Shown here: in pieces, positions 238 to 58,746 of the stretch
How positions within the stretch are numbered: the stretch's first letter is position 1
How the letters are laid out: the number at the start of each line of letters is the position of its first letter
Origin: Cellulophaga sp. L1A9
GTDB taxonomy: Bacteria; Bacteroidota; Bacteroidia; Flavobacteriales; Flavobacteriaceae
Direction of reading: 5' to 3'
Length of the DNA: 64,000 nt
Assembly (NCBI RefSeq): GCF_009797025.1
Contig: NZ_CP047027.1
Span: 3,844,001-3,908,000, forward strand
Notes under the pieces: model-generated
Told to the model about the DNA's origin: nothing
The model's database searches: none
Seen by the model: only the letters and a program-made list of their open reading frames with translations
Translations under genes and position numbers: made by a program

Positions 238-425
238 AACGTTAAGTATAAGAAACGTAGGGTAGGTGATAAGCACTTTCGTTTCGGTTTATTACTTAGC
301 TAAATATAAATATTTTGCTTTTATCTTATCTACTATAAACGCCAAAATTTTATATTTAGCGGACTTTCTTAACATTCACAGACCTTTCGGTTTAGCACAA
401 ACGCCCTATGTTTTTTATACATTGT
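238..425. repeat. attC-like site 1 (family A), split by group II intron
   Basis: Outer arms GTATAAGAAACGTAGGG and CCCTATGTTTTTTATAC pair imperfectly. An inner pair (GCTAAATATAAAT with ATTTTATATTTAGC) is followed by GCGGACTT. The GTT core is split: GT lies at 424-425 and its last T at 1060, after the intron. Confidence 0.85.
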
Positions 426-1059
426 GTGTGCCCAGCATGGGCATCTTTTGATTTACTGAAAGGTAAATAATTAATCTAGAGGGTGCAAGTCCCTTATGGG
501 CAGGTGTAACGCCCTGAACCATTAGTAAGCTGCAAGGTTGCTAGTTGTGAGACTAGGACTGAAGGAAGCAGGACTACAAAACTCGGTACTGACGAACAGG
601 AACCGTATAGGAGGCATAATTATCTGGGTAAGCAACCACATCATTGTAACGCCCTAAAGATTACCAAAATGATAGTTATGTAGATACGGCAGGGATCGAG
701 AGAAAGAAGATGTTCTTACCTGGGGAGATCTCTATAACCACGAGTTGGTATAGTAGAGAAGTCAGCAGAGGTCATAGTACTCACGAGAAACGAGTTGCAG
801 CATATCTGCATAGGTCTCACAAGTGAGGAAGGACTGAAAGTAATCCTTTCTGAAGTGCCAGATGGAGCATTAATTTTCGTTATTGGTTGACCGATTCCCT
901 AGAAAATTTGTAGCCATTTGATAAAGTAAGAAATAGTTTTGATTGGTGTAAAGAGCAATTGGAAAGATGGGTTACTAACCGCCGTATACGAGACCCGTAT
1001 GTACGGTGGTGTGAGAGGCGCACTCCGTTCCTAATTAGGGGCGGAGCCGTCTACTCGAT
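426..1059 (+). mobile_element. ORF-less group IIC intron inserted in attC core
   Basis: The element begins GTGTGCCCAGCATGGGC and ends CTACTCGAT. It carries typical group IIC features: the GAGGGTGCAAGTCCC segment, CTGAAGGAAGCAG, TTCTTACCTGGGGAG, GAAGTCAGCAGAGGTCATAG, and a domain V reading AACCGCCGTATAC ... GTACGGTGGTGTGAGAGG, followed by a domain VI helix around 1018-1048. The layout matches the Oceanobacillus iheyensis class C intron closely. No reverse transcriptase or maturase ORF is present, so mobility and perhaps splicing need a partner in trans. Exons are ...TATACATTGT and TAGCCACAGG; joined, they restore a normal attC end followed by the cassette end TTAGCCACAGG. Class C introns of the attC type are known to insert into integron attC sites. 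Confidence 0.9.
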
Positions 1060-1073
1060 TAGCCACAGGTTTT

Positions 1074-1283
1074 TTATTCAGCATCAGAATATTCCATTAA
1101 ATCGGCAGGCTGACAATCAAGAGCTTTACATATAGATTCTAATGTCGAAAAACGAATAGCCTTAGCCTTTCCTGATTTTAAAATTGAAATATTGGCTGTT
1201 GTAATTCCAATTATTTTTGCGAGTTCTTTACTTTTCATTTTTCGTTTGGCTAGCATAACATCAAGGTTTATTATTATAGCCAT
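1074..1283 (-). CDS. XRE-family helix-turn-helix regulator
   Basis: A 69-residue Cro/C1-type DNA-binding protein of the YozG-like class. Residues 18-60 contain the five-helix core (SKELAKIIGITTANISILKSG ... LESICKALDCQPADLM). It starts three bases after the DUF2975 membrane protein and is transcribed with it. This membrane protein plus small XRE regulator pairing is common in Bacteroidota and Firmicutes, and the regulator probably controls its own operon. The cassette ends TTAGCCACAGG and CTTGTGGCTAA flank the two genes. Confidence 0.85.
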   Translation of the reverse strand: MAIIINLDVMLAKRKMKSKELAKIIGITTANISILKSGKAKAIRFSTLESICKALDCQPADLMEYSDAE

Positions 1284-1286
1284 AAA

Positions 1287-1784
1287 TTAAACTGTTAGTT
1301 CATTTTCTTCTTTTATATTTTTTGCCAAATTGAGCGTGTTACTTTGGATGATAAAAAACATTCCAATAATCGTTAAAAAGAGAGGAACTAATAAGTTGGT
1401 GTCATAAATTAGTTCAAATTTACCTCCATAGAGTTTATTTAGCCACAGAATAGCATAAAGTGCAAATGAAATAATTCCAGTAAGCAAAAAATGACTCCCT
1501 GATTTTTTTAAATTACCAATAATTTTTTCCGAGAAATATTTATTTGATAGTAAGAACCTTGCCATTTTTCTTAAAAAATATAATCCTCTTAGAAATATTA
1601 CATAAGTGATTAAACTCAAAATTAGAATTGCCCAATAGAACATACTCCAATCTTCAACATTTATATTGACTTGATTGATATTTACAATGCCAAAGGGTAT
1701 AATAAATACTATTCCAATCAATCCAATAAAGTGAAGGAAATAAAGAATGTCGACTAGCGATTTAAATAAAATGGTGTTTTTCAT
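1287..1784 (-). CDS. DUF2975-family membrane protein
   Basis: A 165-residue inner-membrane protein with four predicted transmembrane helices (about residues 17-35, 49-66, 95-115 and 128-147) and charged loops. Layout and partner fit DUF2975 proteins, whose function is unknown. It is the first gene of a two-gene cassette, with the XRE regulator three bases downstream. Its start lies 88 bases from the cassette boundary at 1872, longer than most leaders in this array, so it may hold its own promoter. Confidence 0.8.
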   Translation of the reverse strand: MKNTILFKSLVDILYFLHFIGLIGIVFIIPFGIVNINQVNINVEDWSMFYWAILILSLITYVIFLRGLYFLRKMARFLLSNKYFSEKIIGNLKKSGSHFLLTGIISFALYAILWLNKLYGGKFELIYDTNLLVPLFLTIIGMFFIIQSNTLNLAKNIKEENELTV

Positions 1785-1871
1785 GTTCGAATAAATTATT
1801 ATTCAAATATAATAAAATTATTGATAAACAATAATATAATTATGAAAAACGATATTTTTTAACTTGTGGCT

Positions 1872-1994
1872 AACGTTTATGTATAAGAATAGTTGCGGGT
1901 TTGTATGCGAGGATTTTCCGAAGGAAAATCAGACGTTACAAACACGCAAGGACCTTTGATTAAGCTATTAAGCCGCAATTATTTTTATACGGTG
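1872..1994. repeat. attC-like site 2 (family B), interrupted by IS1182
   Basis: Arms GTATAAGAATAGTTGCGG and CCGCAATTATTTTTATAC. The centre has the hairpin GATTTTCC-GAA-GGAAAATC instead of the long inner pair. The site stops at GGTG where IS1182 copy 1 begins; a foreign end CATTGTT (3738-3744) follows the element. Confidence 0.8.
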
Positions 1995-3737
1995 TGCCTG
2001 TTGCACAAGTTAGCAATTAATTGACATATCGTTAAAGTAAATTATTGATTGATTTCTTAACTTTAAGGATGCAAGGCAAAAAAACATATCAAGAAAAGCT
2101 TTTTAATAGTTTTCGCTTAAGCGAACGAGTTCCTCAAGACAATTTTTATCGTTTATTAAAAGGTGTATTAGATTTAAATTTTCTCTATGTTCAAACCAAG
2201 AGTTACTATGGCGACAGTGGCCAGAAGAGTATAGATCCGGTAGTGTTTTTCAAGTTGTGTTTAGTTGGTTATTTAGAGAATATTATCAGTGACCGTAAAT
2301 TAATACAGCATTGTTCTATGCGATTAGATATTCTCTATTTCATTGATTACGATTTAGACGAGGAGCTTCCTTGGCACAGTACGATAAGTAGGACTCGTCA
2401 GTTGTTTCCTGAGTCAGTATTTGAAGAAGTTTTCACTAAAGTACTTAGTATGTGTATAGAAAAGGGCATGGTGAGTGGCCATACACAAGCTATTGATTCT
2501 GCCCCTATAAAAGCGAATGCAAGTATGGATACTTTGGAGCTTAAAGTACCTGAAGAAGATTTGCAAGCACATTTGCGAAAGGTTCGTGTGTTTAGTTCTA
2601 TGGACAAAGAAACACCGCATCGTAAAAGCAAAGGCGATAAGTCAGATAGAGGTCAGCGTATCGTTACAGCGAGCAAGAAAGAACTAGGTGCTATCCAAAG
2701 CAGAAATAAGAAATGGAGTACAGATCAAGATCAACGACCAGGGTCAGGAAACAAAGGCTCGAAGTATACCAGTAATAAAACCCATTATAGTCCTACTGAT
2801 CCAGATGCTCGGATTAGTGTAAAGCCTGGCAAGGCTCGGAAGCTAAATTACTTGAGTCAGTTAAGTGTGGATACGGCTAGTCATGTCATCACCGACATTC
2901 GGGCGTATCATGCTGATGGAAAAGACAATCAACAATTACCAGATATAGTAGAACGTTTACATAAGCGTTTGTGGCAACAGGGTCTGTTTTGGGAAAATTG
3001 TGTTGCGGACACTGGCTACAGTAGTGGCGAGAACTATGCTTATTTAGAGCAGAAAGGACTTAGAAGTTTTATTCCTCCACATGGGACCTATAAAGGTGGT
3101 CCGGATGGTTTTATTTATAATAGAGAAGAAGATTATTATCAGTGTCCACAAGGAAAGATTATCCCCTTTACTAAAGCGTTTAATGATTATAGAACAGGAA
3201 CAAAAAAGAAAGAATATAGGGCACGAAAACATGTTTGTGTTGCTTGCCCAATGCGCAGTAGTTGTCTAGGGAAAAGTGCCCAAGAAAAGAAGTTTAGTGA
3301 ACGTATTACCGAGAAGAATATGAACGTAATAATGCTAGGGTACACAGTCCACAGGGCAGATACATGAAAGGCAAACGCCAAAGTACAGTTGAACCCGTAT
3401 TTGGTACTTTAACGCAGTTTATGGGCTTACGGAAAATAAATACGCTAGGCTTAAAACAAGCCAATAAGGTGATGCACCTATCAGCAATAGCCTATAATCT
3501 GAAGACCTGCCTGCCGGCAGGCAGGAGTACCTGAAATTCACTCAAAAACACGTAAAAAGTGGAGCAGGAATGGGGTCTTTATTCATTCTTCTAAAAAAGA
3601 CCTTATATGCTCTAAAAAACTCATGTTTAAGCACCTCAAAAATAACCAGTTACTTAACTAATTGAAAAATGAAACCGCCTTAAAAGGCGGTTATAAAGGC
3701 CATTATTTTATAAATTATGGAGTTGTGCAACGGTTAC
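1995..3737 (+). mobile_element. IS1182-family element, copy 1
   Basis: A 1743-bp element with ends TGCCTGTTGCACAAGTTAGC and (inverted) GTAACCGTTGCACAACT, sharing a CYGTTGCACAAST core. The tail carries a strong hairpin with GC-rich arms (ACCGCCTT and AAGGCGGT, 3673-3692), probably a terminator. It sits exactly before the TT of an attC core. Flanks are CGGTG on the left and CATTG on the right; because they differ, this copy has recombined since insertion. Confidence 0.9.
2069..3534 (+). pseudogene. IS1182 transposase, frameshifted (copy 1)
   Basis: Compared with the intact copy at 22787-24253, one T is missing near 3302 (AGTG-AACG against AGTGTAACG). The reading frame ends at 3367 after 432 residues, losing the C-terminal region. 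The retained part has the N-terminal DUF772-like domain and most of the DDE domain. ATG at 2069 was chosen over an upstream TTG because the family protein starts MQGKKTYQEKLF. Likely inactive, though a complete copy elsewhere in the window could act in trans. Confidence 0.85.
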
Positions 3738-8922: not shown

Positions 8923-9042
8923 AACGGTTAGTATATGGTTTGTTGCGTGTTTAAATAGCTAATTTAATTAATAAAAACTAAAAGGTAAATTAGTTCTATT
9001 TTTCTTAATTAAACTAAAACTAGCAATAAATTATATACTTTG
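8923..9042. repeat. attC-like site 3 (family C), interrupted by IS1182
   Basis: Arms AGTATATGGTTTGTTGC and GCAATAAATTATATACT. The site ends CTTTG at the start of IS1182 copy 2. The left boundary ACACACAACGG pairs with TTGTGTGTAG at 3744-3753, defining the 5.2-kb multi-gene cassette. Confidence 0.8.
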
Positions 9043-10782
9043 TGCCTGTTGCACAAGTTAGCAATTAATTGACATATCGTTAAAGTAAATTATTGATTGA
9101 TTTCTTAACTTTAAGGATGCAAGGCAAAAAAACATATCAAGAAAAGCTTTTTAATAGTTTTCGCTTAAGCGAACGAGTTCCTCAAGACAATTTTTATCGT
9201 TTATTAAAAGGTGTATTAGATTTAAATTTTCTCTATGTTCAAACCAAGAGTTACTATGGCGATAGCGGCCAGAAGAGTATAGATCCGGTAGTGTTTTTCA
9301 AGTTGTGTTTAGTTGGTTATTTAGAGAATATTATCAGTGACCGTAAATTAATACAGCATTGTTCTATGCGATTAGATATTCTCTATTTCATTGATTACGA
9401 TTTAGACGAGGAGCTTCCTTGGCACAGTACGATAAGTAGGACTCGTCAGTTGTTTCCTGAGTCAGTATTTGAAGAAGTTTTCACTAAAGTACTTAGTATG
9501 TGTATAGAAAAGGGAATGGTGAGTGGTCATACCCAAGCTATTGATTCTGCCCCTATAAAAGCGAATGCAAGTATGGATACTTTGGAGCTTAAAGTACCTG
9601 AAGAAGATTTGCAAGCACATTTGCGAAAGGTTCGTGTGTTTAGTTCTATGGACAAAGAAACACCGCATCGTAAAAGCAAAGGCGATAAGTCAGATAGAGG
9701 TCAGCGTATCGTTACAGCGAGCAAGAAAGAACTAGGTGCTATCCAAAGCAGAAATAAGAAATGGAGTACAGATCAAGACCAACGACCAGGGTCAGGAAAC
9801 AAAGGCTCGAAGTATACCAGTAATAAAACCCATTATAGTCCTACTGATCCAGATGCTCGGATTAGTGTAAAGCCTGGCAAGGCTCGGAAGCTAAATTACT
9901 TGAGTCAGTTAAGTGTGGATACGGCTAGTCATGTCATCACCGACATTCGGGCGTATCATGCTGATGGAAGGACAATCAACAATTGCCAGATATAGTAGAA
10001 CGTTTACATAAGCGTTTGTGGCAACAGGGTCTGTTTTGGGAAAATTGTGTTGCGGACACTGGCTACAGTAGTGGCGAGAACTATGCTTATTTAGAGCAAA
10101 AAGGACTTAAAAGTTTTATTCCTCCACATGGGACCTATAAAGGTGGACCGGATGGTTTTATTTATAATAGGGAAGAAGATTATTATCAGTGCCCAAGGAA
10201 AGATTATCCCTTTACCAAAGCGTTTAATGATTATAGAACGGGAACAAAGAAGAAAGAATATAGGGCACGAAAACATGTTTGTGTTGCTTGCCCAATGCGC
10301 AGTAGTTGTCTAGGGAAAAGTGCCCAAGAAAAGAAGTTTAGTGTAACGTATTACCGAGAAGAATATGAACGTAATAATGCTAGGGTACACAGTCCACAGG
10401 GCAGATACATGAAAGGCAAACGCCAAAGTACAGTTGAACCCGTATTTGGTACTTTAACGCAGTTTATGGGCTTACGGAAAATAAATACGCTAGGCTTAAA
10501 ACAAGCCAATAAGGTGATGCACCTATCAGCAATAGCCTATAATCTGAAGACCTGCCTGCCGGCAGGCAGGAGTACCTGAAATTCACTCAAAAACACGTAA
10601 AAAGTGGAGCAGGAATGGGGTCTTTGTTCATTCTTCTAAAAAAGACCTTATATGCTGTAAAAAACTCATGTTTAAGCACCTCAAAAATAACCAATTACTT
10701 GACTAATTGAAAAATGAAACCGCCTTAAAAGGCGGTTATAAAGGCCATTATTTTATAAATTATGGAGTTGTGCAACGGTTAC
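9043..10782 (+). mobile_element. IS1182-family element, copy 2
   Basis: A 1740-bp copy with the same ends as copy 1. Left flank CTTTG (9038-9042), right flank TTGTG (10783-10787). The left flank equals the right flank of copy 3 (24457-24461), while the inner flanks differ, so copies 2 and 3 look like the two ends of a compound unit. The transposase gene is frameshifted. Confidence 0.9.
9117..10579 (+). pseudogene. IS1182 transposase, frameshifted (copy 2)
   Basis: One base is missing near 9968 (GATGGAAGGACA against GATGGAAAAGACA), splitting the protein into about 292 and 198 residues. A second set of deletions near 10195-10210 removes three bases in total and keeps the frame (CPRKDYPF instead of CPQGKIIPF). 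It still encodes both halves of the DDE domain, in different frames, and is probably inactive. Confidence 0.85.
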
Positions 10783-15676: not shown

Positions 15677-15863
15677 AACGTTAAATATATGGCATTTAGG
15701 GCGGAAAATAAACGCTTATTTTCGGTTAAGCACTAAGCCAAACTTTTGTATTTTGATTTATCTTTTTTATCATAAAGCCAAATCAAAAGATTTGGCGACC
15801 TAGCAAACAAACAAAGGCTTTTCGAATAAACAATAAGCCGCCCTATTTGCTATATATAGTGTT
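15677..15863. repeat. attC-like site 5 (family D)
   Basis: Outer arms AAATATATGGCATTTAGGGC and GCCCTATTTGCTATATATAG. Inner pair GCCAAA.. with CAAAAGATTTGGC, then GCGACC. Left boundary TTGCCAACG, right GTTGTACATAG. Confidence 0.85.
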
Positions 15864-16440: not shown

Positions 16441-16652
16441 AACGCTTAAGCTATGAGTAGTGCGGAGGCGAGGAAACCTATTTGTTTCCGCCTTATCACT
16501 TAGCAAAAGCTTTTTGCCTGCCTGCCGACGAGGCTGGTTTTGATTTATTTTTTTGTTGCCAGAGCAAAATCGGAAAGATTTTGCGGACATAGTAAATATA
16601 CACAAAACATTAAATTAAACACCATACCCCGTATTACTTCATAGGTATTGTT
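16441..16652. repeat. attC-like site 6 (family F variant)
   Basis: Arms GCTATGAGTAGTGCGG and CCCGTATTACTTCATAGG. Inner pair GCAAAAGC.. with GCAAAATCGG...GATTTTGC. It also contains a GCCTGCCTGCCG fragment related to the CCTGCC palindrome of IS1182. Longest site seen, 212 bp. Confidence 0.8.
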
Positions 16653-16998: not shown

Positions 16999-17124
16999 AA
17001 CGTTTTTGGCTATGGTTTGCTGCGTTGGTTAAGCAATAAATTTAGTAAATAAAAACTGACCATTCACGTTTGCGTAGTTTTTCCGAAGGAAAAACTACCA
17101 AGCAGTAAACTATAGGCGGTGTTG
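16999..17124. repeat. attC-like site 7 (family E)
   Basis: Arms GCTATGGTTTGCTGC and GCAGTAAACTATAGGC, central hairpin AGTTTTTCC-GAA-GGAAAAACT; 126 bp. Identical to site 12, the site left of the other copy of the toxin-antitoxin cassette. Confidence 0.88.
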
Positions 17125-17771: not shown

Positions 17772-17957
17772 AACGTTAAATATATGGCATGTTGGGCAAT
17801 AAATAAACGATTATTATCGGTTTAGCCACAAGCCAAATCTTTTTATTTTGTTTTAATTTTTCTCATTTAATACCAAATCAAAAGATTTGGCGACTTTGTA
17901 AATAGGCAACAGCCTTTGGATTAAAAACTAATCGCCCAATTTGCTATATATAGTGTT
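17772..17957. repeat. attC-like site 8 (family D)
   Basis: Arms AAATATATGGCATGTTGGGC and GCCCAATTTGCTATATATAG. Inner CCAAATC pair and GGCGACTTTGTAAATA core. It belongs to the cassette on its right (17972-18490), not to the toxin-antitoxin cassette. Confidence 0.85.
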
Positions 17958-18530: not shown

Positions 18531-18722
18531 AACGTTCAGGCTATGAGTAGTGCGGAAGCAAACTTGCGTTTAACTTACCTTTAAGCACTTAGCCAAAGCA
18601 TTTTATTTGCGTTTAATTTTATTTCGTTCTAAATGTCTAATCAAACTGGTTTGGCGACATAGTAAATATACACAAACGATTTAATTAAACACCAAACCTC
18701 CGCATTACTTATAGGGTTTGTT
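18531..18722. repeat. attC-like site 9 (family F)
   Basis: Arms GGCTATGAGTAGTGCGG and CCGCATTACTTATAGG, inner AATCAAACTGGTTTGGCGAC region; 192 bp. Nearly identical to sites 22 and 28, always attached to the same ORF-less cassette body. Confidence 0.88.
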
Positions 18723-19346: not shown

Positions 19347-19536
19347 AACGGTTAGGCTATGGCAAGTAGGGCAGGCAAGGAAACTTTTCGTTTCCGTTTG
19401 CGCTCGTAGCCAAAGCTTTTTATTTCTTTTTATCCTTCATTTTTTAAAAGCCAAATCAAAAGATTTGGCGGACTTCACAAACACGAACAGGCCTTTAAAT
19501 TCAGCATTTACTGCCCTATTTGTTATAGGTATTGTT
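19347..19536. repeat. attC-like site 10 (unique family)
   Basis: Arms GGCTATGGCAAGTAGGGC and GCCCTATTTGTTATAGG. Inner GCCAAA... with CAAAAGATTTGGC and GGCGGACTTC core; right end ATTGTTAGCA. Confidence 0.83.
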
Positions 19537-20681: not shown

Positions 20682-20870
20682 AACGTTACCGTATAAGAAA
20701 CGTAGGGCAGGTGATAAGCACAATCGTTTCGGTTTATTACTTAGCTAAATATAAATATTTTGCTTTTATCTTTTCTACTATAAACGCCAAATTTTATATT
20801 TAGCGGACTTTATTAATATGCACAGACCTTTCTGTTTAGCACAAACGCCCTATGTTTTTTATACATTGTT
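20682..20870. repeat. attC-like site 11 (family A)
   Basis: Arms GTATAAGAAACGTAGGGC and GCCCTATGTTTTTTATAC, inner GCTAAATATAAAT/ATTTTATATTTAGC pair, GCGGACTTTATTAATA core. Intact relative of site 1. Confidence 0.87.
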
Positions 20871-21753: not shown

Positions 21754-21878
21754 AACGTTTTTGGCTATGGTTTGCTGCGTTGGTTAAGCAATAAATTTAG
21801 TAAATAAAAACTGACCATTCACGTTTGCGTAGTTTTTCCGAAGGAAAAACTACCAAGCAGTAAACTATAGGCGGTGTT
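21754..21878. repeat. attC-like site 12 (family E)
   Basis: Same sequence as site 7. Because it precedes the second toxin-antitoxin copy in the same way, it shows that a cassette carries the site on its left (3' of the gene). Confidence 0.88.
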
Positions 21879-22526: not shown

Positions 22527-22712
22527 AACGATTTGGCTATGAACAGTACGGGAGCAAACTGGCGTTTGCTTTCCGCCACGCACATAGCGAAATCTTTTGG
22601 TTTTGTTTTTTCTTTTTTCTGTCAAAAGCGAAATCCCAAAGATTTCGCGACCTCTTAAAAATACACAAACCTTAGCGTTTAAGCCCGAAGCCCGTATTGT
22701 TTATAGGTGTTG
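22527..22712. repeat. attC-like site 13 (family G), interrupted by IS1182
   Basis: Arms GGCTATGAACAGTACGGG and CCCGTATTGTTTATAGG, inner GCGAAATCTTT/AAAGATTTCGC pair. The site ends TGTTG where IS1182 copy 3 starts; a different end CTTTGTT follows the element at 24457. Confidence 0.83.
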
Positions 22713-24456
22713 TGCCTGTTGCACAAGTTAGCAATTAATTGACATAGTGTTAAAGTAAATTATTGATTGATTTCTTAACTTTAAGGATGCAAGGCAAAAA
22801 AACATATCAAGAAAAGCTTTTTAATAGTTTTCGCTTAAGCGAACGAGTTCCTCAAGACAATTTTTATCGTTTATTAAAAGGTGTATTAGATTTAAATTTT
22901 CTCTATGTTCAAACCAAGAGTTACTATGGCGGCAGTGGCCAGAAGAGTATAGATCCGGTAGTGTTCTTCAAGTTGTGTTTGGTTGGTTATTTAGAGAATA
23001 TTATCAGTGACCGTAAATTAATACAGCATTGTTCTATGCGATTAGATATTCTCTATTTCATTGATTACGATTTAGACGAGGAGCTTCCTTGGCACAGTAC
23101 GATAAGTAGGACTCGTCAGTTGTTTCCTGAGTCAGTATTTGAAGAAGTTTTCACTAAAGTACTTAGTATGTGTATAGAAAAGGGCATGGTAAGTGGTCAT
23201 ACCCAAGCTATTGATTCTGCCCCAATAAAAGCGAATGCAAGTATGGATACTTTGGAGCTTAAAGTACCTGAAGAAGATTTGCAAGCACATTTACGAAAGG
23301 TTCGTGTGTTTAGTTCTATGGACAAAGAAACACCGCACCGTAAAAGCAAAGACGATAAGTCAGATAGAGGTCAGCGTATCGTTACAGCGAGCAAGAAAGA
23401 ACTAGGTGCTATCCAAAGCAGAAATAAGAAATGGAGTACAGATCAAGACCAACGACCAGGGTCAGGAAACAAAGGCTCGAAGTATACCAGTAATAAAACC
23501 CATTATAGTCCTACTGATCCAGATGCTCGGATTAGTGTAAAGCCTGGCAAGGCTCGGAAGCTAAATTACTTGAGTCAGTTAAGTGTGGATACGGCTAGTC
23601 ATGTCATCACCGACATTCGGGCGTATCATGCTGATGGAAAAGACAATCAACAATTACCAGATATAGTAGAACGTTTACATAAGCGTTTGTGGCAACAGGG
23701 TCTGTTTTGGGAAAATTGTGTTGCGGACACTGGCTACAGTAGTGGCGAGAACTATGCTTATTTAGAGCAGAAAGGACTTAGAAGTTTTATTCCTCCACAT
23801 GGGACCTATAAAGGTGGTCCGGATGGTTTTATTTATAATAGAGAAGAAGATTATTATCAGTGTCCACAAGGAAAGATTATCCCCTTTACTAAAGCGTTTA
23901 ATGATTATAGAACAGGAACAAAAAAGAAAGAATATAGGGCACGAAAACATGTTTGTGTTGCTTGCCCAATGCGCAGTAGTTGTCTAGGGAAAAGTGCCCA
24001 AGAAAAGAAGTTTAGTGTTACTTATTATAGAGCAGAATACGAACGTAATAATGCTAGGGTACACAGTCCACAGGGCAGATACATGAAAGGCAAACGGCAA
24101 AGTACAGTTGAACCCGTATTTGGTACTTTAACGCAGTTTATGGGCTTACGGAAAATAAATACGCTAGGCTTAAAACAAGCCAATAAGGTGATGCACCTAT
24201 CAGCAATAGCCTATAATCTGAAGACCTGCCTGCCGGCAGGCAGGAGTACCTGAAATTCACTCAAAAACACGTAAAAAGTGGAGCAGGAATGGGGTCTTTG
24301 TTCATTCTTCTAAAAAAGACTTTATATGCTCTAAAAAACTCATGTTTAAGCACCTCAAAAATAACCAATTACTTAACTAATTGAAAAATGAAACCGCCTT
24401 AAAAGGCGGTTATAAAGGCCATTATTTTATAAATTATGGAGTTGTGCAACGGTTAC
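22713..24456 (+). mobile_element. IS1182-family element, copy 3 (intact)
   Basis: The longest copy (1744 bp) and the only one with an open transposase gene, so the probable source of activity for all four. Left flank TGTTG, right flank CTTTG. The right flank matches the left flank of copy 2, not its own left flank. Confidence 0.92.
22787..24253 (+). CDS. IS1182-family transposase, full length
   Basis: 488 residues from ATG at 22787 (MQGKKTYQEKLFNSF); a TTG eight codons upstream is possible but less likely. It has an N-terminal DUF772-type domain, a central basic linker with KPGKARKLNYLSQLSVDTAS, a DDE-type domain (VADTGYSSGENYAYLE) and a cysteine cluster (CVACPMRSSCLG), ending in the TVEPVFGTLTQFMGLRK motif. 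The final residues LKTCLPAGRST come from a CCTGCCTGCC/GGCAGGCAGG palindrome that forms the end of the gene. It cuts and pastes the element; insertion is always at the attC core in this window. Confidence 0.92.
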   Translation: MQGKKTYQEKLFNSFRLSERVPQDNFYRLLKGVLDLNFLYVQTKSYYGGSGQKSIDPVVFFKLCLVGYLENIISDRKLIQHCSMRLDILYFIDYDLDEELPWHSTISRTRQLFPESVFEEVFTKVLSMCIEKGMVSGHTQAIDSAPIKANASMDTLELKVPEEDLQAHLRKVRVFSSMDKETPHRKSKDDKSDRGQRIVTASKKELGAIQSRNKKWSTDQDQRPGSGNKGSKYTSNKTHYSPTDPDARISVKPGKARKLNYLSQLSVDTASHVITDIRAYHADGKDNQQLPDIVERLHKRLWQQGLFWENCVADTGYSSGENYAYLEQKGLRSFIPPHGTYKGGPDGFIYNREEDYYQCPQGKIIPFTKAFNDYRTGTKKKEYRARKHVCVACPMRSSCLGKSAQEKKFSVTYYRAEYERNNARVHSPQGRYMKGKRQSTVEPVFGTLTQFMGLRKINTLGLKQANKVMHLSAIAYNLKTCLPAGRST

Positions 24457-25025: not shown

Positions 25026-25213
25026 AACGCTTGAGCTAAGCGTAGTGCGGTAGTAAGGACACGTTGAGTTTCCGTCTGCGCACGAAGCTAAAGCTTTTTG
25101 TTTAGTTTTAATTTTTCTTGTCCAAAGCTAAATCCCAAAGATTTAGCGACATTCTAAATATACACAGACCTTTCGGTTTTGCCCTAAAGTTCGCATTACG
25201 TTTAGGTTTTGTT
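25026..25213. repeat. attC-like site 14 (family H)
   Basis: Arms GAGCTAAGCGTAGTGCGG and CGCATTACGTTTAGG, inner AAGCTAAAGC.. with AAAGATTTAGCGAC, then ATATACACAGACCTTTCGG. Confidence 0.86.
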
Positions 25214-25758: not shown

Positions 25759-25828
25759 AACGATAGATGTATAATTTGTGGCCTTTATTCATATCAGTTA
25801 GTTTAGGCCATAAATTATACAGCGTGTT
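25759..25828. repeat. attC-like site 15 (short, 70 bp)
   Basis: The most compact site of the array and closest in size to classical attC sites. Arms GTATAATTTGTGGCC and GGCCATAAATTATAC pair with one mismatch around a loop of about 21 bases. Bounded by CCAACG and GTGTTGTG. Confidence 0.85.
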
Positions 25829-26242: not shown

Positions 26243-26421
26243 AACGCTTGAGCTATGAACAGTACGGGCGCAAACTAGCGTTTGCTTTCCGCCACGCACA
26301 TAGCGCAATCTTTTGGTTTTGTTTTTTCTTTTTTTGTGTCAAAGCGAAATCCCAAAGATTTCGCGACATTATAAATATACACAGACCTTTCGATTAAGCC
26401 CGAAGCCCGTATTGTTTATAG
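26243..26421. repeat. attC-like site 16 (family G), interrupted by IS3 element
   Basis: Arms GAGCTATGAACAGTACGGG and CCCGTATTGTTTATAG. The right arm is cut by an IS3-family element; GTTTATAGGTTTTGTT resumes at 27739-27754, repeating GTTTATAG. Confidence 0.85.
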
Positions 26422-26480
26422 TTTAGCCCCTAATAAGTTCGGAGTGATCTTTTAAATTTCAAACTTAATATATTTGAGAT

Positions 26481-33471: not shown

Positions 33472-33598
33472 AACGGTTGGTGTATGGTTAGTTGCTTGGT
33501 TTAAACAACTAATTTAACAAAAGGAAACCGAATGTTAGGGAAATCTGAAGGATTTTCCGGGTACACACAGACCTAAGCAATTAATTATACAATTTGTT
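33472..33598. repeat. attC-like site 21 (family C)
   Basis: Arms GGTGTATGGTTAGTTGC and GCAATTAATTATACAA, central hairpin GGAAATC-TGAA-GGATTTTCC. 127 bp. Confidence 0.84.
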
Positions 33599-34935: not shown

Positions 34936-35127
34936 AACGTTCAGGCTATGAGTAGTGCGGAAGCAAACTTGCGTTTAACTTACCTTTAAGCACTTAGCCA
35001 AAGCATTTTATTTGCGTTTAATTTTATTTGGTTCTAAATGTCTAATCAAACTGGTTTGGCGACATAGTAAATATACACAAACGATTTAATTAAACACCAA
35101 ACCTCCGCATTACTTATAGGGTTTGTT
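34936..35127. repeat. attC-like site 22 (family F)
   Basis: Nearly identical to site 9 across its 192 bp, and attached to the second copy of the ORF-less cassette. Identity starts at AACGTTCAGG; the preceding bases differ (TTTGCT here, CCTACA there). Confidence 0.88.
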
Positions 35128-35752: not shown

Positions 35753-35943
35753 AACGGCTCCGTATATGAAAAGTAGCGCTGAAAATAAGCAGTTACTTTT
35801 CGGATTAACACAAGCCGAGTTTTTAAATTTTACTATTTATCTTTTTCATTGGAAATCGTCAAATTTAAAAATTTGGCGACTTTCCAAAAATGCCCAAACC
35901 ATAGTGTTAGCAATGACTTGCGCTATTTTTTATATACAATGTT
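35753..35943. repeat. attC-like site 23 (unique family)
   Basis: Arms CCGTATATGAAAAGTAGCGC and GCGCTATTTTTTATATAC; inner CGAGTTTTTAAATTT with AAATTTAAAAATTTGGCGAC. Confidence 0.84.
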
Positions 35944-36933: not shown

Positions 36934-37057
36934 AACGGTCTAGTATAAGAATAGTAGCGGATTTTTTCGCACTTACTTTTCGGTTGAACACAGACCTTTT
37001 TTATATTTATCCACCCTTGATTTAGCACTAAAACCGCTATTATTTTTATACATTGTT
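36934..37057. repeat. attC-like site 24 (family B)
   Basis: Arms AGTATAAGAATAGTAGCGG and CCGCTATTATTTTTATAC; the centre differs from sites 2 and 18 (no GATTTTCC hairpin). 124 bp. Confidence 0.84.
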
Positions 37058-39468: not shown

Positions 39469-39654
39469 AACGATGGAGCTATGAACAGTACGGGAGCAAA
39501 CTAGCATTTACTTTCCGCCACACACATAGCAAAATCTTTTTGTTTTGTTTTTTCTTTTATTGTTTAAAGCAAAATCCTAAAGATTTTGCGACATCATAAA
39601 AATACACAAACCTTTCGTTTAAGCCCGAAGCCCGTATTGTTTATAGGTTTTGTT
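39469..39654. repeat. attC-like site 25 (family G)
   Basis: Arms GAGCTATGAACAGTACGGG and CCCGTATTGTTTATAGG; inner GCAAAATC../AAAGATTTTGC and GCGACATCATAAAAATA core. Confidence 0.87.
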
Positions 39655-40374: not shown

Positions 40375-40562
40375 AACGGTTTAGCTATGAACAGTGCGGG
40401 AACAAACTAACGTTTGCTTTCCGCCACGCACATAGCGAAATCTTTTGGTTTTGTTTTTTCTTTTCCTTGTTTAAAGCAAAATCCCAAAGATTTTGCGGAC
40501 TTCATAAAAATACGCAAACCATTGGTTTAAGCCCGAAGCCCGTATTGTTTATAGGTTTTGTT
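40375..40562. repeat. attC-like site 26 (family G)
   Basis: Left arm TTAGCTATGAACAGTGCGGG, right arm CCCGTATTGTTTATAGG; inner GCGAAATCTTT pairs with AAAGATTTTGC. Confidence 0.87.
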
Positions 40563-42973: not shown

Positions 42974-43156
42974 AACGTTAAGTATAAGAAACGTAGGGCA
43001 GGTGAAAAGCACTTTCGTTTTATTACTTAGCTAAATATAAATATTTTGCTTTTATCTTTTCTACTATAAACGCCAAATTTTATATTTAGCGGACTTTGTT
43101 AATAGGCACAGAACTTTCGGTAAACACAAACGCCCTATGTTTTTTATACCGTGTTA
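42974..43156. repeat. attC-like site 27 (family A)
   Basis: Arms GTATAAGAAACGTAGGGC and GCCCTATGTTTTTTATAC, inner GCTAAATATAAAT/ATTTTATATTTAGC pair. Confidence 0.87.
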
Positions 43157-44384: not shown

Positions 44385-44576
44385 AACGTTTAGGCTATGA
44401 GTAGTGCGGAAGCAAACTTGCGTTTAACTTACCTTTAAGCACTTAGCCAAAGCATTTTATTTGCGTTTAATTTTATTTCGTTCTAAATGTCCAATCAAAC
44501 TGGTTTGGCGACATAGTAAATATACACAAACGATTTAATTAAACACCAAACCTCCGCATTACTTATAGGATTTGTT
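44385..44576. repeat. attC-like site 28 (family F)
   Basis: Same as sites 9 and 22 with a few base changes (TTTAGG for TTCAGG, ATAGGATTTG for ATAGGGTTTG). Attached to the third ORF-less cassette copy. Confidence 0.88.
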
Positions 44577-45201: not shown

Positions 45202-45389
45202 AACGGTTGGGCTAAGCGTAGTGCGGAGGCAAGGAAACTTTTCGTTTCCGTCTACGCACGAAGCTAAAGCTTATTGTTTAGTTTTATTTTTTCTTGTCCA
45301 AAGCTAAATCCATAAGATTTAGCGACATCATAAATATACGCAGACCTTTCGGTTTTGCCCAAAAGTCCGCATTACGTTTAGGTTTTGTT
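45202..45389. repeat. attC-like site 29 (family H)
   Basis: Arms GGCTAAGCGTAGTGCGG and CCGCATTACGTTTAGG; inner AAGCTAAAGC../AAGATTTAGCGAC. Confidence 0.87.
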
Positions 45390-46003: not shown

Positions 46004-46194
46004 AACGGAATTGTATAAGAATAGTAGGGCGGAAAAAACGCACAAACCATTCGGTTAAACACAAGCCGAATTTTTAAATTTTTCTTATTATCTTTTTTTC
46101 TCAATAAGCCAAATTTAAAAATTTGGCGACTTCGCAAAAGTGCCCAAGCCATTGAATTAAGCAACTAATTGCCCTATTATTTTTATACGGTGTT
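46004..46194. repeat. attC-like site 30 (family B arms, long form)
   Basis: Arms TGTATAAGAATAGTAGGGC and GCCCTATTATTTTTATAC, with a long inner pair GCCGAATTTTTAAATTT / AAATTTAAAAATTTGGC. The stop codon of the next gene lies inside its right end. Confidence 0.85.
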
Positions 46195-47196: not shown

Positions 47197-47384
47197 AACG
47201 ATGGAGCTATGAACAGTACGGGAGCAAACTAGCGTTTGCTTTCCGCCAAGCACATAGCAAAATCTTTTTGTTTTGTTTTTTCTTTTCCTTGTTTAAAGCA
47301 AAATCCCAAAGATTTTGCGGACATCATAAAAATACGCAAACCTTCTGATTAAGCCCAAAACCCGTATTGTTTATAGGTTGTGTT
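47197..47384. repeat. attC-like site 31 (family G)
   Basis: Arms GAGCTATGAACAGTACGGG and CCCGTATTGTTTATAGG; inner GCAAAATC../AAAGATTTTGC; right end GTGTTGTACATAG. Confidence 0.87.
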
Positions 47385-49194: not shown

Positions 49195-49382
49195 AACGCT
49201 TGAGCTATGAACAGTACGGGAGCAAACTAGCGTTTGCTTTCCGCCACACACATAGCAAAATCTTTTTGTTTTGTTTTTTCTTTTCCTTGTTTAAAGCAAA
49301 ATCCAAAAGATTTTGCGGACTTCATAAAAATACACAAACCTAGCGACTAAGCCCGAAGCCCGTATTGTTTATAGGTTGTGTT
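49195..49382. repeat. attC-like site 32 (family G)
   Basis: Arms GAGCTATGAACAGTACGGG and CCCGTATTGTTTATAGG; inner GCAAAATC../AAAGATTTTGC; right end TTGTGTTGGCAATAG. Confidence 0.87.
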
Positions 49383-49390
49383 GGCAATAG

Positions 49391-50110: not shown

Positions 50111-50121
50111 AATTATTGCCA

Positions 50122-50306
50122 ACGGTTAGGCTAAGCGTAGTGCGGAGGCAAGGAAACTTTTCGTTTCCGTCTGCGCACGAAGCTAAAGCTTATTGTTTAG
50201 TTTTATTTTTTCTTGTCCAAAGCTAAATCCATAAGATTTAGCGACACAATAAATATACACAGACCTTTCGGTTTTGCCCTAAAGTCCGCATTACGTTTAG
50301 GCATTG
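50122..50306. repeat. attC-like site 33 (family H), interrupted by IS1182
   Basis: Arms GGCTAAGCGTAGTGCGG and CCGCATTACGTTTAGG. Ends CATTG before IS1182 copy 4; the same CATTG, then TTGTACC, follows the element at 52049. Confidence 0.86.
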
Positions 50307-52048
50307 TGCCTGTTGCACAAGTTAGCAATTAATTGACATAGTGTTAAAGTAAATTATTGATTGATTTCTTAACTTTAAGGATGCAAGGCAAAAAAACATA
50401 TCAAGAAAAGCTTTTTAATAGTTTTCGCTTAAGCGAACGAGTTCCTCAAGACAATTTTTATCGTTTATTAAAAGGTGTATTAGATTTAAATTTTCTCTAT
50501 GTTCAAACCAAGAGTTACTATGGCGACAGTGGCCAGAAGAGTATAGATCCGGTAGTGTTCTTCAAGTTGTGTTTGGTTGGTTATTTAGAGAATATTATCA
50601 GTGACCGTAAATTAATACAGCATTGTTCTATGCGATTAGATATTCTCTATTTCATTGATTACGATTTAGACGAGGAGCTTCCTTGGCACAGTACGATAAG
50701 TAGGACTCGTCAGTTGTTTCCTGAGTCAGTATTTGAAGAAGTTTTCACTAAAGTACTTAGTATGTGTATAGAAAAGGGAATGGTAAGTGGTCATACACAA
50801 GCTATTGATTCGGCCCCAATAAAAGCGAATGCAAGTATGGATACTTTGGAGCTTAAAGTACCTGAAGAAGATTTGCAAGCACATTTGCGAAAGGTTCGTG
50901 TGTTTAGTTCTATGGACAAAGAAACACCGCACCGTAAAAGCAAAGACGATAAGTCAGATAGAGGTCAGCGTATCGTTACAGCGAGCAAGAAAGAACTAGG
51001 TGCTATCCAAAGCAGAAATAAGAAATGGAGTACAGATCAAGACCAACGACCAGGGTCAGGAAACAAAGGCTCGAAGTATACCAGTAATAAAACCCATTAT
51101 AGTCCTACTGATCCAGATGCTCGGATTAGTGTAAAGCCTGGCAAGGCTCGGAAGCTTAATTACTTGAGTCAGTTAAGTGTGGATACGGCTAGTCATGTCA
51201 TCACCGACATTCGGGCGTATCATGCTGATGGAAAAGACAATCAACAATTACCAGATATAGTAGAACGTTTACATAAGCGTTTGTGGCAACAGGGTCTGTT
51301 TTGGGAAAATTGTGTTGCGGACACTGGCTACAGTAGTGGCGAGAACTATGCTTATTTAGAGCAGAAAGGACTTAGAAGTTTTATTCCTCCACATGGGACC
51401 TATAAAGGTGGTCCGGATGGTTTTATTTATAATAGGGAAGAAGATTATTATCAGTGTCCACAAGGAAAGATTATCCCCTTTACTAAAGCGTTTAATGATT
51501 ATAGAACAGGAACAAAAAGAAAGAATATAGGGCACGAAAACATGTTTGTGTTGCTTGCCCAATGCGCAGTAGTTGTCTAGGGAAAAGTGCCCAAGAAAAG
51601 AAGTTTAGTGTAACGTATTACCGAGAAGAATATGACGTAATAATGCTAGGGTACACAGTCCACAGGGCAGATACATGAAAGGCAAACGCCAAAGTACAGT
51701 TGAACCCGTATTTGGTACTTTAACGCAGTTTATGGGCTTACGGAAAATAAATACGCTAGGCTTAAAACAAGCCAATAAGGTGATGCACCTATCAGCAATA
51801 GCCTATAATCTGAAGACCTGCCTGCCGGCAGGCAGGAGTACCTGAAATTCACTCAAAAACACGTAAAAAGTGGAGCAGGAATGGGGTCTTTATTCATTCT
51901 TCTAAAAAAGACCTTATATGCTCTAAAAAACTCATGTTTAAGCACCTCAAAAATAACCAGTTACTTAACTAATTGAAAAATGAAACCGCCTTAAAAGGCG
52001 GTTATAAAGGCCATTATTTTATAAATTATGGAGTTGTGCAACGGTTAC
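50307..52048 (+). mobile_element. IS1182-family element, copy 4
   Basis: 1742 bp; the only copy with matching 5-bp flanks (CATTG, 50302-50306 and 52049-52053), which defines the target duplication and insertion point: directly before the TT of the attC GTT core. The transposase is frameshifted, so movement needed a helper or predates the mutations. Confidence 0.93.
50381..51845 (+). pseudogene. IS1182 transposase, frameshifted (copy 4)
   Basis: One A is missing in the A-run near 51515 (GGAACAAAAAGAAAG against GGAACAAAAAAGAAAG), ending the frame at 51580 after about 399 residues. A second base is missing near 51634 (TATGACGTAAT against TACGAACGTAAT). The catalytic N-terminal part is intact; the C terminus is lost. 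Confidence 0.85.
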
Positions 52049-52516: not shown

Positions 52517-52704
52517 AACGATGGAGCTATGAACAGTACGGGAGCAAACTAGCGTTTGCTTTCCGCCACGCACATAGCAAAATCTTTTGGTTTTGATTTA
52601 TTTTTTCCTGTCTAGAGCAAAATCCAAAAGATTTTGCGGACTTCATAAAAATACGCAAACCTTTCGTTTAAATCCCTAACCCCGTATTGTTTATAGGTTT
52701 TGTT
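52517..52704. repeat. attC-like site 34 (family G)
   Basis: Arms GAGCTATGAACAGTACGGG and CCCGTATTGTTTATAGG; inner GCAAAATC../AAAGATTTTGC. Confidence 0.87.
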
Positions 52705-54287: not shown

Positions 54288-54475
54288 AACGATGGAGCTA
54301 TGAACAGTACGGGAGCAAACTAGCGTTTACTTTCCGCTAAGCACATAGCAAAATCTTTTTGTTTTCTTTTTTCTTTTCCTTGTTTAAAGCAAAATCCCAA
54401 AGATTTTGCGGACATCATAAAAATACACAAACGTTTCGATTAAGCCCAAAGCCCGTATTGTTTATAGGTTTTGTT
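54288..54475. repeat. attC-like site 35 (family G)
   Basis: Arms GAGCTATGAACAGTACGGG and CCCGTATTGTTTATAGG; inner GCAAAATC../AAAGATTTTGC. Confidence 0.87.
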
Positions 54476-56275: not shown

Positions 56276-56463
56276 AACGGTTTAGCTATGAACAGTACGG
56301 GGGCAAACCAGCGTTTGCTTTCCGCCACGCACATAGCGAAATCTTTTTGTTTTGTTTTTTCTTTTCCTTGTTTAAAGCAAAATCCCAAAGATTTTGCGGA
56401 CTTCATAAAAATACACAAACCTTTCGACTAAGCCCGAAGCCCGTATTGTTTATAGGTTGTGTT
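56276..56463. repeat. attC-like site 36 (family G)
   Basis: Left arm TTAGCTATGAACAGTACGGG, right arm CCCGTATTGTTTATAGG; inner GCGAAATC../AAAGATTTTGC. Confidence 0.87.
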
Positions 56464-57056: not shown

Positions 57057-57088
57057 TCTTGGTAAAAATGATTTTTCAGCTTGCGCAC

Positions 57089-57275
57089 AACGTTAAATAT
57101 ATGGCAAGTTGGGCAGAAAATAAGCGATTACTTTCGGTTTAGTCACAAGCCAAATCTTTTGTATTTTGTTTTAATTTCTCTCATTTAATACCAAATCAAA
57201 AGATTTGGCGACTTTGCAAATAGACAATAACCTTTCGATTAAACACTAATCGCCCAATTTGCTATATATAGTGTT
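57089..57275. repeat. attC-like site 37 (family D)
   Basis: Arms AAATATATGGCAAGTTGGGC and GCCCAATTTGCTATATATAG; inner CCAAATC pair and GGCGACTTTGCAAATA core. Confidence 0.86.
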
Positions 57276-57285
57276 GTAAAACGTT

Positions 57286-57723
57286 TCATTCGGTTTCATT
57301 TTCATCAGTTGCTGGATGATATAAGCTTATTTCAATACCGATATTTAAATTCCCAGTCAGTTTGAGTAATTCAGGTTGCAAGTATTCAGTTTGACACCAG
57401 AAGTCAGCCATTTGATTTTCAATTGCAAATCCGATTAAAGGAATCTCTTTGTTTTCAAGTCCGAATCCGTTTAGTTTTTCCAATTTTTCATAATTCTGAT
57501 TTAGAAAAAGGATAACATCGTTTCTTTGCGCTTCAAAGTCATTAAAATCCGCTTTACTTAAATCAAACCTACAACCACTGGTTTCATACTTCATTGGCTT
57601 ATTAAGCTTTTTAAAAGGTTTTTTATCTCCTTTCAAATGTTTTTCATAAGGACTTAATCCGGTTTCTTTTAAAAAACCATTTACATCAAATTTTGAACCT
57701 TCAATTATTAAAATACAATTCAA
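57286..57723 (-). CDS. DUF4279-like protein
   Basis: 145 residues with no signal. The layout (MNCILIIEGSKFDVNGFLKETGLSPYEKHLKGD ... YETSGCRFDLSKADFNDFEAQRNDVILFLNQNYEKLEKL ... IGIEISLYHPA) fits DUF4279, small cytoplasmic proteins often found in toxin-immunity or defence loci and of unknown function. Ends TTGTAAAACG and TGTTTTACAA. Confidence 0.62.
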   Translation of the reverse strand: MNCILIIEGSKFDVNGFLKETGLSPYEKHLKGDKKPFKKLNKPMKYETSGCRFDLSKADFNDFEAQRNDVILFLNQNYEKLEKLNGFGLENKEIPLIGFAIENQMADFWCQTEYLQPELLKLTGNLNIGIEISLYHPATDENETE

Positions 57724-57747
57724 TATTTAGTTTTTTTAATGTTTTAC

Positions 57748-57933
57748 AACGTTTGGGCTATGAAACGTAGCGTGTAAAAAAACACGGAACTTTCGGTTTA
57801 TACCCAAGCCGAATTTTTAAATTTTCTTTTTATCTTATTCTCCCCAAAAGCCAAATTTAAAAATTTGGCGACTTAGCAAATACACACGAACCTCTCGGAA
57901 AGCCTGTAATAGCTATGTTTTATAGCCGTTGTT
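57748..57933. repeat. attC-like site 38 (unique family)
   Basis: Arms GGCTATGAAACGTAGCG and AGCTATGTTTTATAGCC; inner GCCGAATTTTTAAATTT / AAATTTAAAAATTTGGC. Last site before the recombinase. Confidence 0.85.
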
Positions 57934-57941
57934 GTACACCG

Positions 57942-58694
57942 TTATTTTTCGAGTTTTCTTTTTCTTATCAACTTTTCTTTGCCGTCGATAATTTTAAATT
58001 TCTTTGTCCAAACTCCATTTTTATTGTAAACGTATCTATAATTTTCAATTGGATGTAATGATGGTCCGCCTAACATATAAATTGGAAATTCTCGTTCAGG
58101 GCTGTATACTCGTCTTATCTCTATTTCGTTGCCTCGATTGTCATACAAATAGCTTAAAATTTCAGTCTGCTTTTCAATAGTTTTGTCATCTTTTTTAGTT
58201 TCTGAGTAAGTGGTGATTTTAGAGATATTACCATGTTTGTCATATTCATAAAGCTCTTTTTCGGTATGAAAGTCGAATATTACATCTGTCCTTTCTAAAA
58301 TTTTCGGTTTACCTTGCGCATTGAAATCCGAATATTTTTCTAGCATTCCAAGTTGTTTTCTTTCAGTAAGCAGGCTGTCTTTAACGTAAGTCAGGTCAAT
58401 CCGTACGGTGTCTCTTATAAATCCTTCGTTAATGTCGAAAGTCCTTATTTCCATGATTTTATTGCCGTATTTATCATATTCGAATTCATTTCTACTTCGT
58501 TTTTCTCCTTTAAAATAGCTTTCACGGGATGATATGAGTCCGTCAGTAAGGGTGAATTTTGATACCCAATGGTTTGATTCTAAATTTTTCTCGGTGTAGG
58601 CACGATATTTTTTAAGTCCATCTATTTCATTTTTTTGACAAAAGATTAGACTTGTCCAAACTAAAAATGTGTAAATGAAAAATGTTTGTTTCAT
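57942..58694 (-). CDS. secreted YD/RHS-repeat-like protein (first cassette)
   Basis: 250 residues from MKQTFFIYTFLVWTSLIFCQ (signal peptide); five upstream in-frame residues belong to the cassette end. It contains several YD-type repeats (YDKYGNKIMEIRTFD, YDKHGNISKITTYSE, YDNRGNEIEIRRVY, YNKNGVWTKKFKII), like the beta-rich shell of RHS proteins but short. It is the cassette next to the recombinase, thus the most recently inserted position in an integron. Ends TTGTACACCG and TGGTGTACAA. Confidence 0.72.
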   Translation of the reverse strand: MKQTFFIYTFLVWTSLIFCQKNEIDGLKKYRAYTEKNLESNHWVSKFTLTDGLISSRESYFKGEKRSRNEFEYDKYGNKIMEIRTFDINEGFIRDTVRIDLTYVKDSLLTERKQLGMLEKYSDFNAQGKPKILERTDVIFDFHTEKELYEYDKHGNISKITTYSETKKDDKTIEKQTEILSYLYDNRGNEIEIRRVYSPEREFPIYMLGGPSLHPIENYRYVYNKNGVWTKKFKIIDGKEKLIRKRKLEK

Positions 58695-58704
58695 AATGGT
58701 GTAC

Positions 58705-58746
58705 AACAATTGGATATACGCTATTGCGTATATCTGTACTATGTGC
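58705..58746. other. attI-like attachment site with palindrome
   Basis: Between the first cassette and the recombinase stop. The junction GTACAACAATTGG matches the attC boundary except AACA for AACG, giving TG^TTG on the - strand. Six bases further is a 22-bp interrupted palindrome: GATATACGC (58713-58721), TATT, GCGTATATC (58726-58734). There is no T-run, so it is unlikely to be a terminator, and it could be the recombinase-binding part of an attI site. The same GCGTATAT occurs upstream of the recombinase at 59932-59939. Confidence 0.55.

Follow-up and report, generated by a model that had tools for sequence, protein, structure and literature searches.

Integrons are the best-known gene-capture platform of bacteria, and IntI with its extra domain is taken as their defining part. 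In classical integrons and super-integrons (IntI, attI, attC/Vibrio cholerae repeats) a tyrosine recombinase stands at one end of a row of tandem cassettes, with its landing site beside it, and the attC sites are hairpins at the 3' ends of genes with a junction at GTT. The non-coding strand of attC is the stabler one, a divergent recombinase is the usual layout, and super-integrons typically include toxin-antitoxin cassettes. Xer proteins resolve chromosome dimers at dif. Here we describe a stretch of 64,000 nt (the window, positions 3844001-3908000) from the genome of Cellulophaga sp. L1A9, a single contig of 5,072,468 bases (NZ_CP047027.1). It holds an array of attC-like sites with a tyrosine recombinase gene at one end which is very probably a chromosomal integron of a lineage not using IntI.

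The array shares with classical integrons the recombinase at one end and the landing site beside it, the tandem cassettes, the hairpin sites at gene 3' ends with a junction at GTT, the stabler non-coding strand and a toxin-antitoxin-like cassette. It differs from them in a recombinase that lacks the IntI insertion and carries an N-terminal extension of ~105 residues, in sites of ~120 or 187 nt that do not follow RYYYAAC/GTTRRRY, and in a palindromic attI. Moreover, the recombinase gene is co-directional with the cassettes in 34 site-bearing loci of the family, although it is divergent in 4/6 loci with a more distant recombinase. With XerA and other Xer proteins (NF040815, 4a8e, 5hxy) the recombinase has the catalytic and core-binding parts in common; unlike these it adjoins a cassette array and has an attI-like site of its own.

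The sites were found with a profile that started from 11 hand-picked copies and led to further ones across the genome. A covariance model (R1) was then built from 38 aligned sites, 24 inside the window and the others from further regions of the genome. With R1 the window yields 37 sites, which all lie on the + strand; 36 of them reach E ≤ 1e-4, while the site at 8923-9044 is found only at 0.008; an earlier note made from the sequence had counted 38. Among the 37, 24 are training rows and 13 were absent from the training set. Matches on the - strand are these same palindromes read backwards. A first-pass pattern (CAACG...TGTTG, gap ≤ 50) gave zero matches because the sites are longer, and inverted-repeat scoring with the AAC/GTT anchor alone did not separate the sites from a reversed-sequence control; hence profile and covariance models were used. 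A scan against Rfam at the gathering threshold gave no match at the sites.

The 38 sites have invariant ends AACG...TGTT and a typical length of ~187 nt, next to a short form of about 120 nt. The outer C and G, which the earlier note had counted as part of the ends, are cassette-specific and lie outside the site. The consensus structure consists of an outer stem of 17 pairs and an inner stem of 8 pairs. Compared with 500 shuffles, 97.5% of the stem cells are paired (80.6% shuffled), 151 cells show double changes (40.0 shuffled) and the covariation score is 0.440 (0.121 shuffled), whereby the test is favoured by a structure derived from the very 38 sequences tested. The signal is lost if the partner strand is slid by 1-3 columns. 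On the folded non-coding strand a G-T pair occupies one stem position in 38/38 sequences and another in 36/38; on the coding strand both would be mismatched. The RYYYAAC and GTTRRRY boxes of classical sites each occur in 7/127 sites of this genome and two relatives (G001, G007), which is about chance (1 in 16 expected) and agrees with the misfit noticed before.

The array is not confined to the window, as its proposed limit at 238 had implied. Left of the window ~44 kb are without sites, then sites resume at about 3.78-3.80 Mb. Clusters are located at about 3.78-3.90, 3.64-3.66, 1.84-1.86, 0.97-1.00 and 0.22-0.24 Mb, and the fetched stretches hold 57 full-length sites of at least 50 bits (36, 4, 2, 6 and 9 by cluster). 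Weaker reverse palindrome matches aside, the sites are in + orientation in the first two clusters and in - orientation in the other three. dnaA is located at 501-986 of the contig. Assuming that replication starts at dnaA and terminates about halfway round the chromosome, the cassette genes on both sides would point in the direction of fork movement.

The units between the sites are compact cassettes. Their length in the window region has a median of 729 nt, for the 24 cassettes in the range of 100-2000 nt. In 19/24 of these the gene strand has the longer open reading frame (ORF), as it does in 12/14 and 44/49 cassettes of the relatives G001 and G007. Cassette ends and folding were evaluated with 105 cassettes from the three genomes. 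As suggested from the window, the two ends of a cassette are complementary to each other: 74/105 are perfect over 6 nt, and the mean of 4.93 of 6 compares with 2.25 for shuffled partners (maximum of 1000 shuffles 2.70). In 67 of the 74 the pairing extends to position 7, in 72 there is a G-T wobble at position 8, and 53 are paired throughout positions 9-11; over all 105 cassettes the wobble occurs in 93. At least some cassettes with non-matching ends hold an insertion element. The circle form was modelled with DNA folding parameters. Here the non-coding strand is the stabler one in 103/105 cassettes (mean -35.3 vs -32.1 kcal/mol), and the circle form is stabler than the array form in 91/105. 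The complementarity of the ends would make sense for an excised circle. The motif TAnnTTTG, which we take to be a promoter motif, was found near the cassette start in just 8/105 cassettes (1/105 shuffled).

Junctions were analysed over the 127 sites, a shared flank being defined as 40 nt before AAC with at least 90% identity. Such a flank is common to 34 site pairs, and the following sites differ in 27 of them (< 0.75 identity), are intermediate in 3 (0.75-0.9) and alike in 4. Over the 27 pairs, up to 6 of which stem from a group of four sites that have the end of an IS3-type insertion sequence (IS) as their common flank, identity is 0.85-1.00 in the 20 bases before AAC, 1.00 through AACG and 0.30 at the next base (background 0.33). 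As AACG is common to nearly all sites, the breakpoint can be placed inside or at the edge of AACG and not at a single base. On the other side, 39 pairs share 40 nt after GTT; 35 of these share the site too and 3 are below 0.75. Beyond the site, 33/35 of the pairs sharing both have different neighbours. Such a polarity would be expected if each site moved together with the 3' end of its gene.

Whole cassettes have been copied as well. Among the 105 cassettes there are 14 pairs of 97.9-100% identity. They derive from nine cassettes; a single one of these, present four times, accounts for six of the 14 pairs. When the copies are compared directly, similarity is at background on the left in 14/14 pairs and, in the body that follows the next site, in 13/14. 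All 14 pairs occur within single genomes; at a threshold of 80% identity and 90% length coverage no whole cassette recurs from one of the three genomes to another, and two cassette 5' ends are shared across genomes. Over 31 pairs of same-cassette copies, differences between the sites concentrate at bases 4-10 (counting starts at the A of AAC), where they reach 0.35 per position, with 0.009 per position in mid-site and a lesser peak of 0.19 at 7 bases from the GTT end. The excess near AAC is perhaps an exchange tract. The idea that an incoming cassette brings the variable bases behind AACG along was checked as well; this was not seen, as the profile is near background. According to the earlier note, relatives with the same gene order and no cassette-precise differences, or breakpoints unrelated to GTT, would have spoken against an integron. 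Within this genome and the two relatives, in a collection of one genome per species, the breakpoints fall within AACG and the copies have new neighbours.

These junctions also bear on another explanation, namely that the sites are dispersed palindromic repeats of the kind of miniature inverted-repeat transposable elements or repetitive extragenic palindromes, which lie between genes and are shuffled by homologous recombination. Related repeats between genes, IS copies in the region and several genomic loci are what one would see in this case. Yet the sites occupy one strand only in the window and keep a constant layout beside one recombinase, the intervening units have complementary ends, and the junctions fall within four bases. 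We regard shuffled repeats as highly improbable.

Directly after the recombinase gene lies an attI-like site, consisting of AAC, 4-6 nt and a palindrome. It is present in 37/48 loci compared with 1/48 shuffled, whereby the 48 loci include close relatives and are not independent. Left of the AAC each genome has a different cassette, right of it the attI sequence is conserved. The palindrome sequence differs between recombinase lineages. By eye, the same layout of AAC plus palindrome was seen in 13/13 named loci (Winogradskyella, Psychroserpens, Gelidibacter, Xanthomarina, Flaviramulus and others); these are 13 of 15 found, two fragments having been left out, and at least 2 of their genomes are already among the 40 loci described below. 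Six of the 13 have a site in the flank (≤ 3 kb), and three of the remaining ones end within 169 nt.

The earlier note had proposed to look in related flavobacteria for this recombinase next to such arrays, and this is where it is found. There are 57 recombinase places in the family, of which 40 were taken with up to 15 kb downstream and ~2 kb upstream; those skipped are mostly near a contig end. Sites of at least 40 bits are carried by 34/40 loci, and 132/132 counted sites are downstream and antisense. Since the upstream stretch is shorter, the orientation is more telling than the position. The count derives from 134 rows of at least 40 bits, from which one reverse duplicate was dropped; a 52-nt match (L132, 2840-2891) is uncounted and likewise downstream and antisense. 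Six loci are without sites: the draft contigs L095, L101, L109 and L120 end ≤ 214 nt from the recombinase gene, and L105 and L130 have no site of 40 bits. Contigs end there probably because the arrays are repetitive, and draft genomes may under-report such arrays.

The gene at the array end had been named as a tyrosine recombinase in the earlier note, and Pfam agrees (PF00589 and PF13495). In the window it is split into two ORFs by a frameshift near 59200; the pieces are 93% and 98% identical to the intact 375-aa protein of a relative. The closest protein to the N-terminal piece is from Cellulophaga algicola (95%), and a search of the genome with this piece gives one match. Intact relatives are ~375 aa long, and close relatives have open frames. 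The catalytic and core-binding parts align end to end with XerA, the cut-off of whose model NF040815 is barely exceeded (221.8 bits vs 220), and the ~105 residues of the N-terminal extension lie in front of these. Residues which we presume to be catalytic are invariant across 52 aligned recombinases. The nearest solved structures include VchIntIA (2a3v). Just beyond the recombinase a tRNA-Met gene is located (60588-60664).

Is this protein merely a diverged integrase of a classical IntI integron? The anatomy is shared, with an attI-like landing site, with attC-like sites at the 3' ends of genes and with compact one-way cassettes, VchIntIA is among the nearest structures, and IntI is the neighbouring clade in trees. 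However, the intact relative P0003 of Cellulophaga algicola scores 188.8 bits with the IntI model TIGR02249, below the cut-off of 265, and no match to this model at E ≤ 1e-50 exists in the genome, in line with the absence of a classical IntI gene reported before. The tree places the recombinase group and IntI in separate clades (both 100/100), and the R boxes are at chance. The alignment has 46 IntI-only columns, 42 of them within the insertion which is absent here, and each of six more distant array-side recombinases has 0/42 residues in these. An IntI-specific additional domain is reported to be located around patch III (PMC9668308). A merely diverged IntI is hence very unlikely. A clade made up of FLA and the six distant array-side recombinases alone is weakly rejected (p-AU 0.04); array association therefore is not equal to one clade in this sampling.

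Plasmid pdif modules are moved by XerC/XerD, and dif-like sites have a length of 28 bp. By analogy the cassettes could be modules moved by the housekeeping XerC/XerD with the adjacent recombinase as a bystander, in accordance with the Xer-like character of the latter, with other matches to the XerD model in the genome, and with sites in many genomes that have no close recombinase. We consider this scarcely credible, as the sites are hairpins of ~120 or 187 nt, the attI-like palindrome adjoins the recombinase gene and tracks its lineage, and the recombinase is array-adjacent in 34/40 loci.

The system extends well beyond Cellulophaga. R1 matches at E ≤ 1e-4 occur in 229/299 genomes and 188/236 genera of Flavobacteriaceae, in a survey with 8 candidates scored per genome, strict filters and rough E-values. 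A close recombinase (E ≤ 1e-100) is present in 50/299 genomes, and compared by eye all 50 carry sites. From 12 genomes with strong sites and no close recombinase six were fetched, and each has a distant recombinase of 272-390 aa ≤ 2.6 kb from the array. These loci (L185-L190) form the distant recombinase group by sites of the same kind, L185-L188 being the four divergent ones. G043, G253 and G271, also among the 12, were left out of the locus comparison. Across the phylum R1 matches in 55/247 genomes, comprising 16/27 listed Flavobacteriaceae and 39/220 others; outside the family matches are mostly few and weak, with five genomes reaching at least 134 bits. The IntI model is above cut-off in 70/247 Bacteroidota genomes, none of them in Flavobacteriaceae among the matches listed.

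A search of 72,556 plasmid records with two site queries matched one, pSMS7 of Arenibacter algicola (NZ_CP022516; L195), which is typed mobilizable. It has a site of 172.6 bits, one complete cassette with the complementary ends GTAGTGC/GCACTAC, and a landing site of AAC, 4 nt and then GGATATCC. Its recombinase is divergent and annotated as site-specific tyrosine recombinase/integron integrase. A viral origin found no support: no phage record matched the one query site used, and no viral contig has a close recombinase.

Several observations weigh against a non-IntI integron. The palindrome was not found in 11/48 loci and is mostly unclear next to distant recombinases. L105 (one 29.3-bit match) and L130 lack a 40-bit site over 15 kb downstream each, and no site is near two recombinases within the wider clade (L191 and Persicobacter L136). 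Sites are carried by 179/249 genomes without a close recombinase; among the 12 such genomes mentioned above, G258 and G189 have no recombinase match near the listed sites, and G119 has a remnant only. One of the 14 duplicate pairs shares its right neighbour. Finally, the recombinase gene of the window itself is frameshifted, so that this copy may be inactive.

The last point raises the possibility of a fossil array which is inert in this strain, and which would be compatible with a non-IntI integron for the family. Several sites are interrupted by IS copies and an intron as well. On the other hand, the frameshift could be a sequencing error, the frames of close relatives are open, and this genome has cassette copies with an identity of 97.9-99.8%, so that movement was probably recent. 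A fossil is rather unlikely, though it deserves more weight than the alternatives above.

Returning to a chromosomal integron without IntI, the following mechanism is probable. The Xer/IntI-like recombinase at the array end would exchange strands at the AAC/GTT triplet of the attC-like site and of the attI-like site beside its own gene. The non-coding strand of the attC-like site would fold into a long imperfect hairpin. In the excised circle the cassette's own ends would pair (7 nt, the conserved G-T wobble, 3 nt) and lengthen the hairpin, hence each cassette would carry matching halves of its site. A circle would be inserted again either beside the recombinase gene or at another place of the array. 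The sequence itself shows the sites, their covariation and strand bias, the cassette-precise junctions, the attI-like site, the fixed layout on the recombinase side and the absence of the IntI insertion. That this very recombinase is the one at work, that it acts on a folded single strand, and that excised circles exist is inferred. By its anatomy and the traces of past exchange the array seemingly works like an integron; going by the IntI insertion and the R boxes, the system is not a member of the IntI type.

No description of this system was found in the literature (open-licence PMC papers, without preprints and with few subscription papers). IntegronFinder 2.0 is said to have reported no integrons in a Tenacibaculum genome (PMC10013915), and a survey names one complete integron in Bacteroidetes beyond Chlorobi and Ignavibacteriae, that of Salinibacter ruber (PMC9024848). 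Standard tools (IntegronFinder, HattCI) probably miss the sites described here owing to the R-box mismatch. Evenly balanced, in our view, is the wider proposal of a second integron lineage, sister to IntI, with complementary hairpin halves in the cassettes, a palindromic attI, and an N-terminal domain that would replace the IntI insertion for recognising folded DNA and whose residues 1-95 may have the damage-recognition fold of branched-DNA readers (XPB/HARP); it would be widespread in Flavobacteriaceae, present in other Bacteroidota families and on a mobilizable plasmid, and overlooked as standard models misfit. If true, the same logic would be realised with another recombinase, with other sites and with an attI that is palindromic, so that capture via folded single strands either evolved two times or is older than the domain of IntI. 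Such a system also opens up a large pool of so far unread cassettes in Bacteroidota, and the plasmid example suggests that it can travel.

Features of the array in the window (positions in the window; bits refer to model R1)
Feature	Position	Strand	Remarks
attC-like site 1	238..426	+	138.9 bits; GTT end interrupted by group II intron
attC-like site 2, short form	1872..1996	+	62.8 bits; interrupted by IS1182-type element
attC-like site 3, short form, weak	8923..9044	+	22.3 bits, E 0.008; interrupted by IS1182-type element
attC-like site 4	15677..15863	+	164.9 bits
attC-like site 5	16441..16652	+	143.4 bits
attC-like site 6, short form	16999..17123	+	34.7 bits
attC-like site 7	17772..17957	+	168.5 bits
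attC-like site 8	18531..18722	+	169.6 bits
attC-like site 9	19347..19536	+	161.5 bits
attC-like site 10	20682..20870	+	140.5 bits
attC-like site 11, short form	21754..21878	+	34.7 bits
attC-like site 12	22527..22714	+	180 bits; interrupted by IS1182-type element
attC-like site 13	25026..25213	+	179 bits
attC-like site 14, 70 nt	25759..25828	+	33.5 bits
attC-like site 15	26243..26424	+	171.6 bits; GTT end unlike other sites
attC-like site 16, short form	28474..28595	+	102.2 bits
attC-like site 17, short form	29816..29939	+	56.1 bits
attC-like site 18	30522..30710	+	190.6 bits
attC-like site 19	31254..31441	+	185.1 bits
attC-like site 20, short form	33472..33598	+	33.5 bits
attC-like site 21	34936..35127	+	170.4 bits
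attC-like site 22	35753..35943	+	132.7 bits
attC-like site 23, short form	36934..37057	+	65 bits
attC-like site 24	39469..39654	+	204.6 bits
attC-like site 25	40375..40562	+	187.9 bits
attC-like site 26	42974..43155	+	136.3 bits
attC-like site 27	44385..44576	+	170.8 bits
attC-like site 28	45202..45389	+	182.5 bits
attC-like site 29	46004..46194	+	140.3 bits
attC-like site 30	47197..47384	+	198.3 bits
attC-like site 31	49195..49382	+	194.6 bits
attC-like site 32	50121..50308	+	177.9 bits; interrupted by IS1182-type element
attC-like site 33	52517..52704	+	198.7 bits
attC-like site 34	54288..54475	+	201.4 bits
attC-like site 35	56276..56463	+	195.7 bits
attC-like site 36	57089..57275	+	176.9 bits
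attC-like site 37, of first cassette after attI	57748..57933	+	143 bits
First cassette, adjoining attI	57934..58704	-	ORF 57942-58709; GTACACC after GTT, GGTGTAC before AAC, ends complementary
attI-like site	58705..58734	+	AAC, 5 nt, palindrome GATATACGCTA/TTGCGTATATC (1 mismatch)
Tyrosine recombinase gene (integrase)	58747..59873	-	two ORFs, frameshift near 59200; PF00589 and PF13495

Other mobile elements seem to use the sites as targets. IIC-attC introns and IS1111-attC elements are known to insert in attC, and here a group II intron and an element whose family we take to be IS1182 are found at the GTT end, the latter representing another IS family than IS1111. By eye, in the fetched array regions, 8/8 copies of the IS1182-type element (left ends in the window at 1996, 9044, 22714 and 50308) and 4/5 copies of the intron start right after TGT of an apparent GTT end. 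The intron copy at 428-1059 matches Rfam RF02001. For the IS3-type element, 4/5 ends in these regions are placed 11 nt ahead of AAC.

As to cassette contents, a ParE-type toxin (Pfam PF05016) with a small upstream gene is located between two sites at 17136-17686, and ORFs of equal lengths recur at 21891-22441. A repeated cassette of ~625 nt without an ORF of more than 43 aa is present at 18723-19346, 35128-35752 and 44577-45201, with one further copy outside the window. The gene at 37076-38815, adjoining a site, resembles a type II DNA methyltransferase (PADLOC PDLC03310, E 4e-126).

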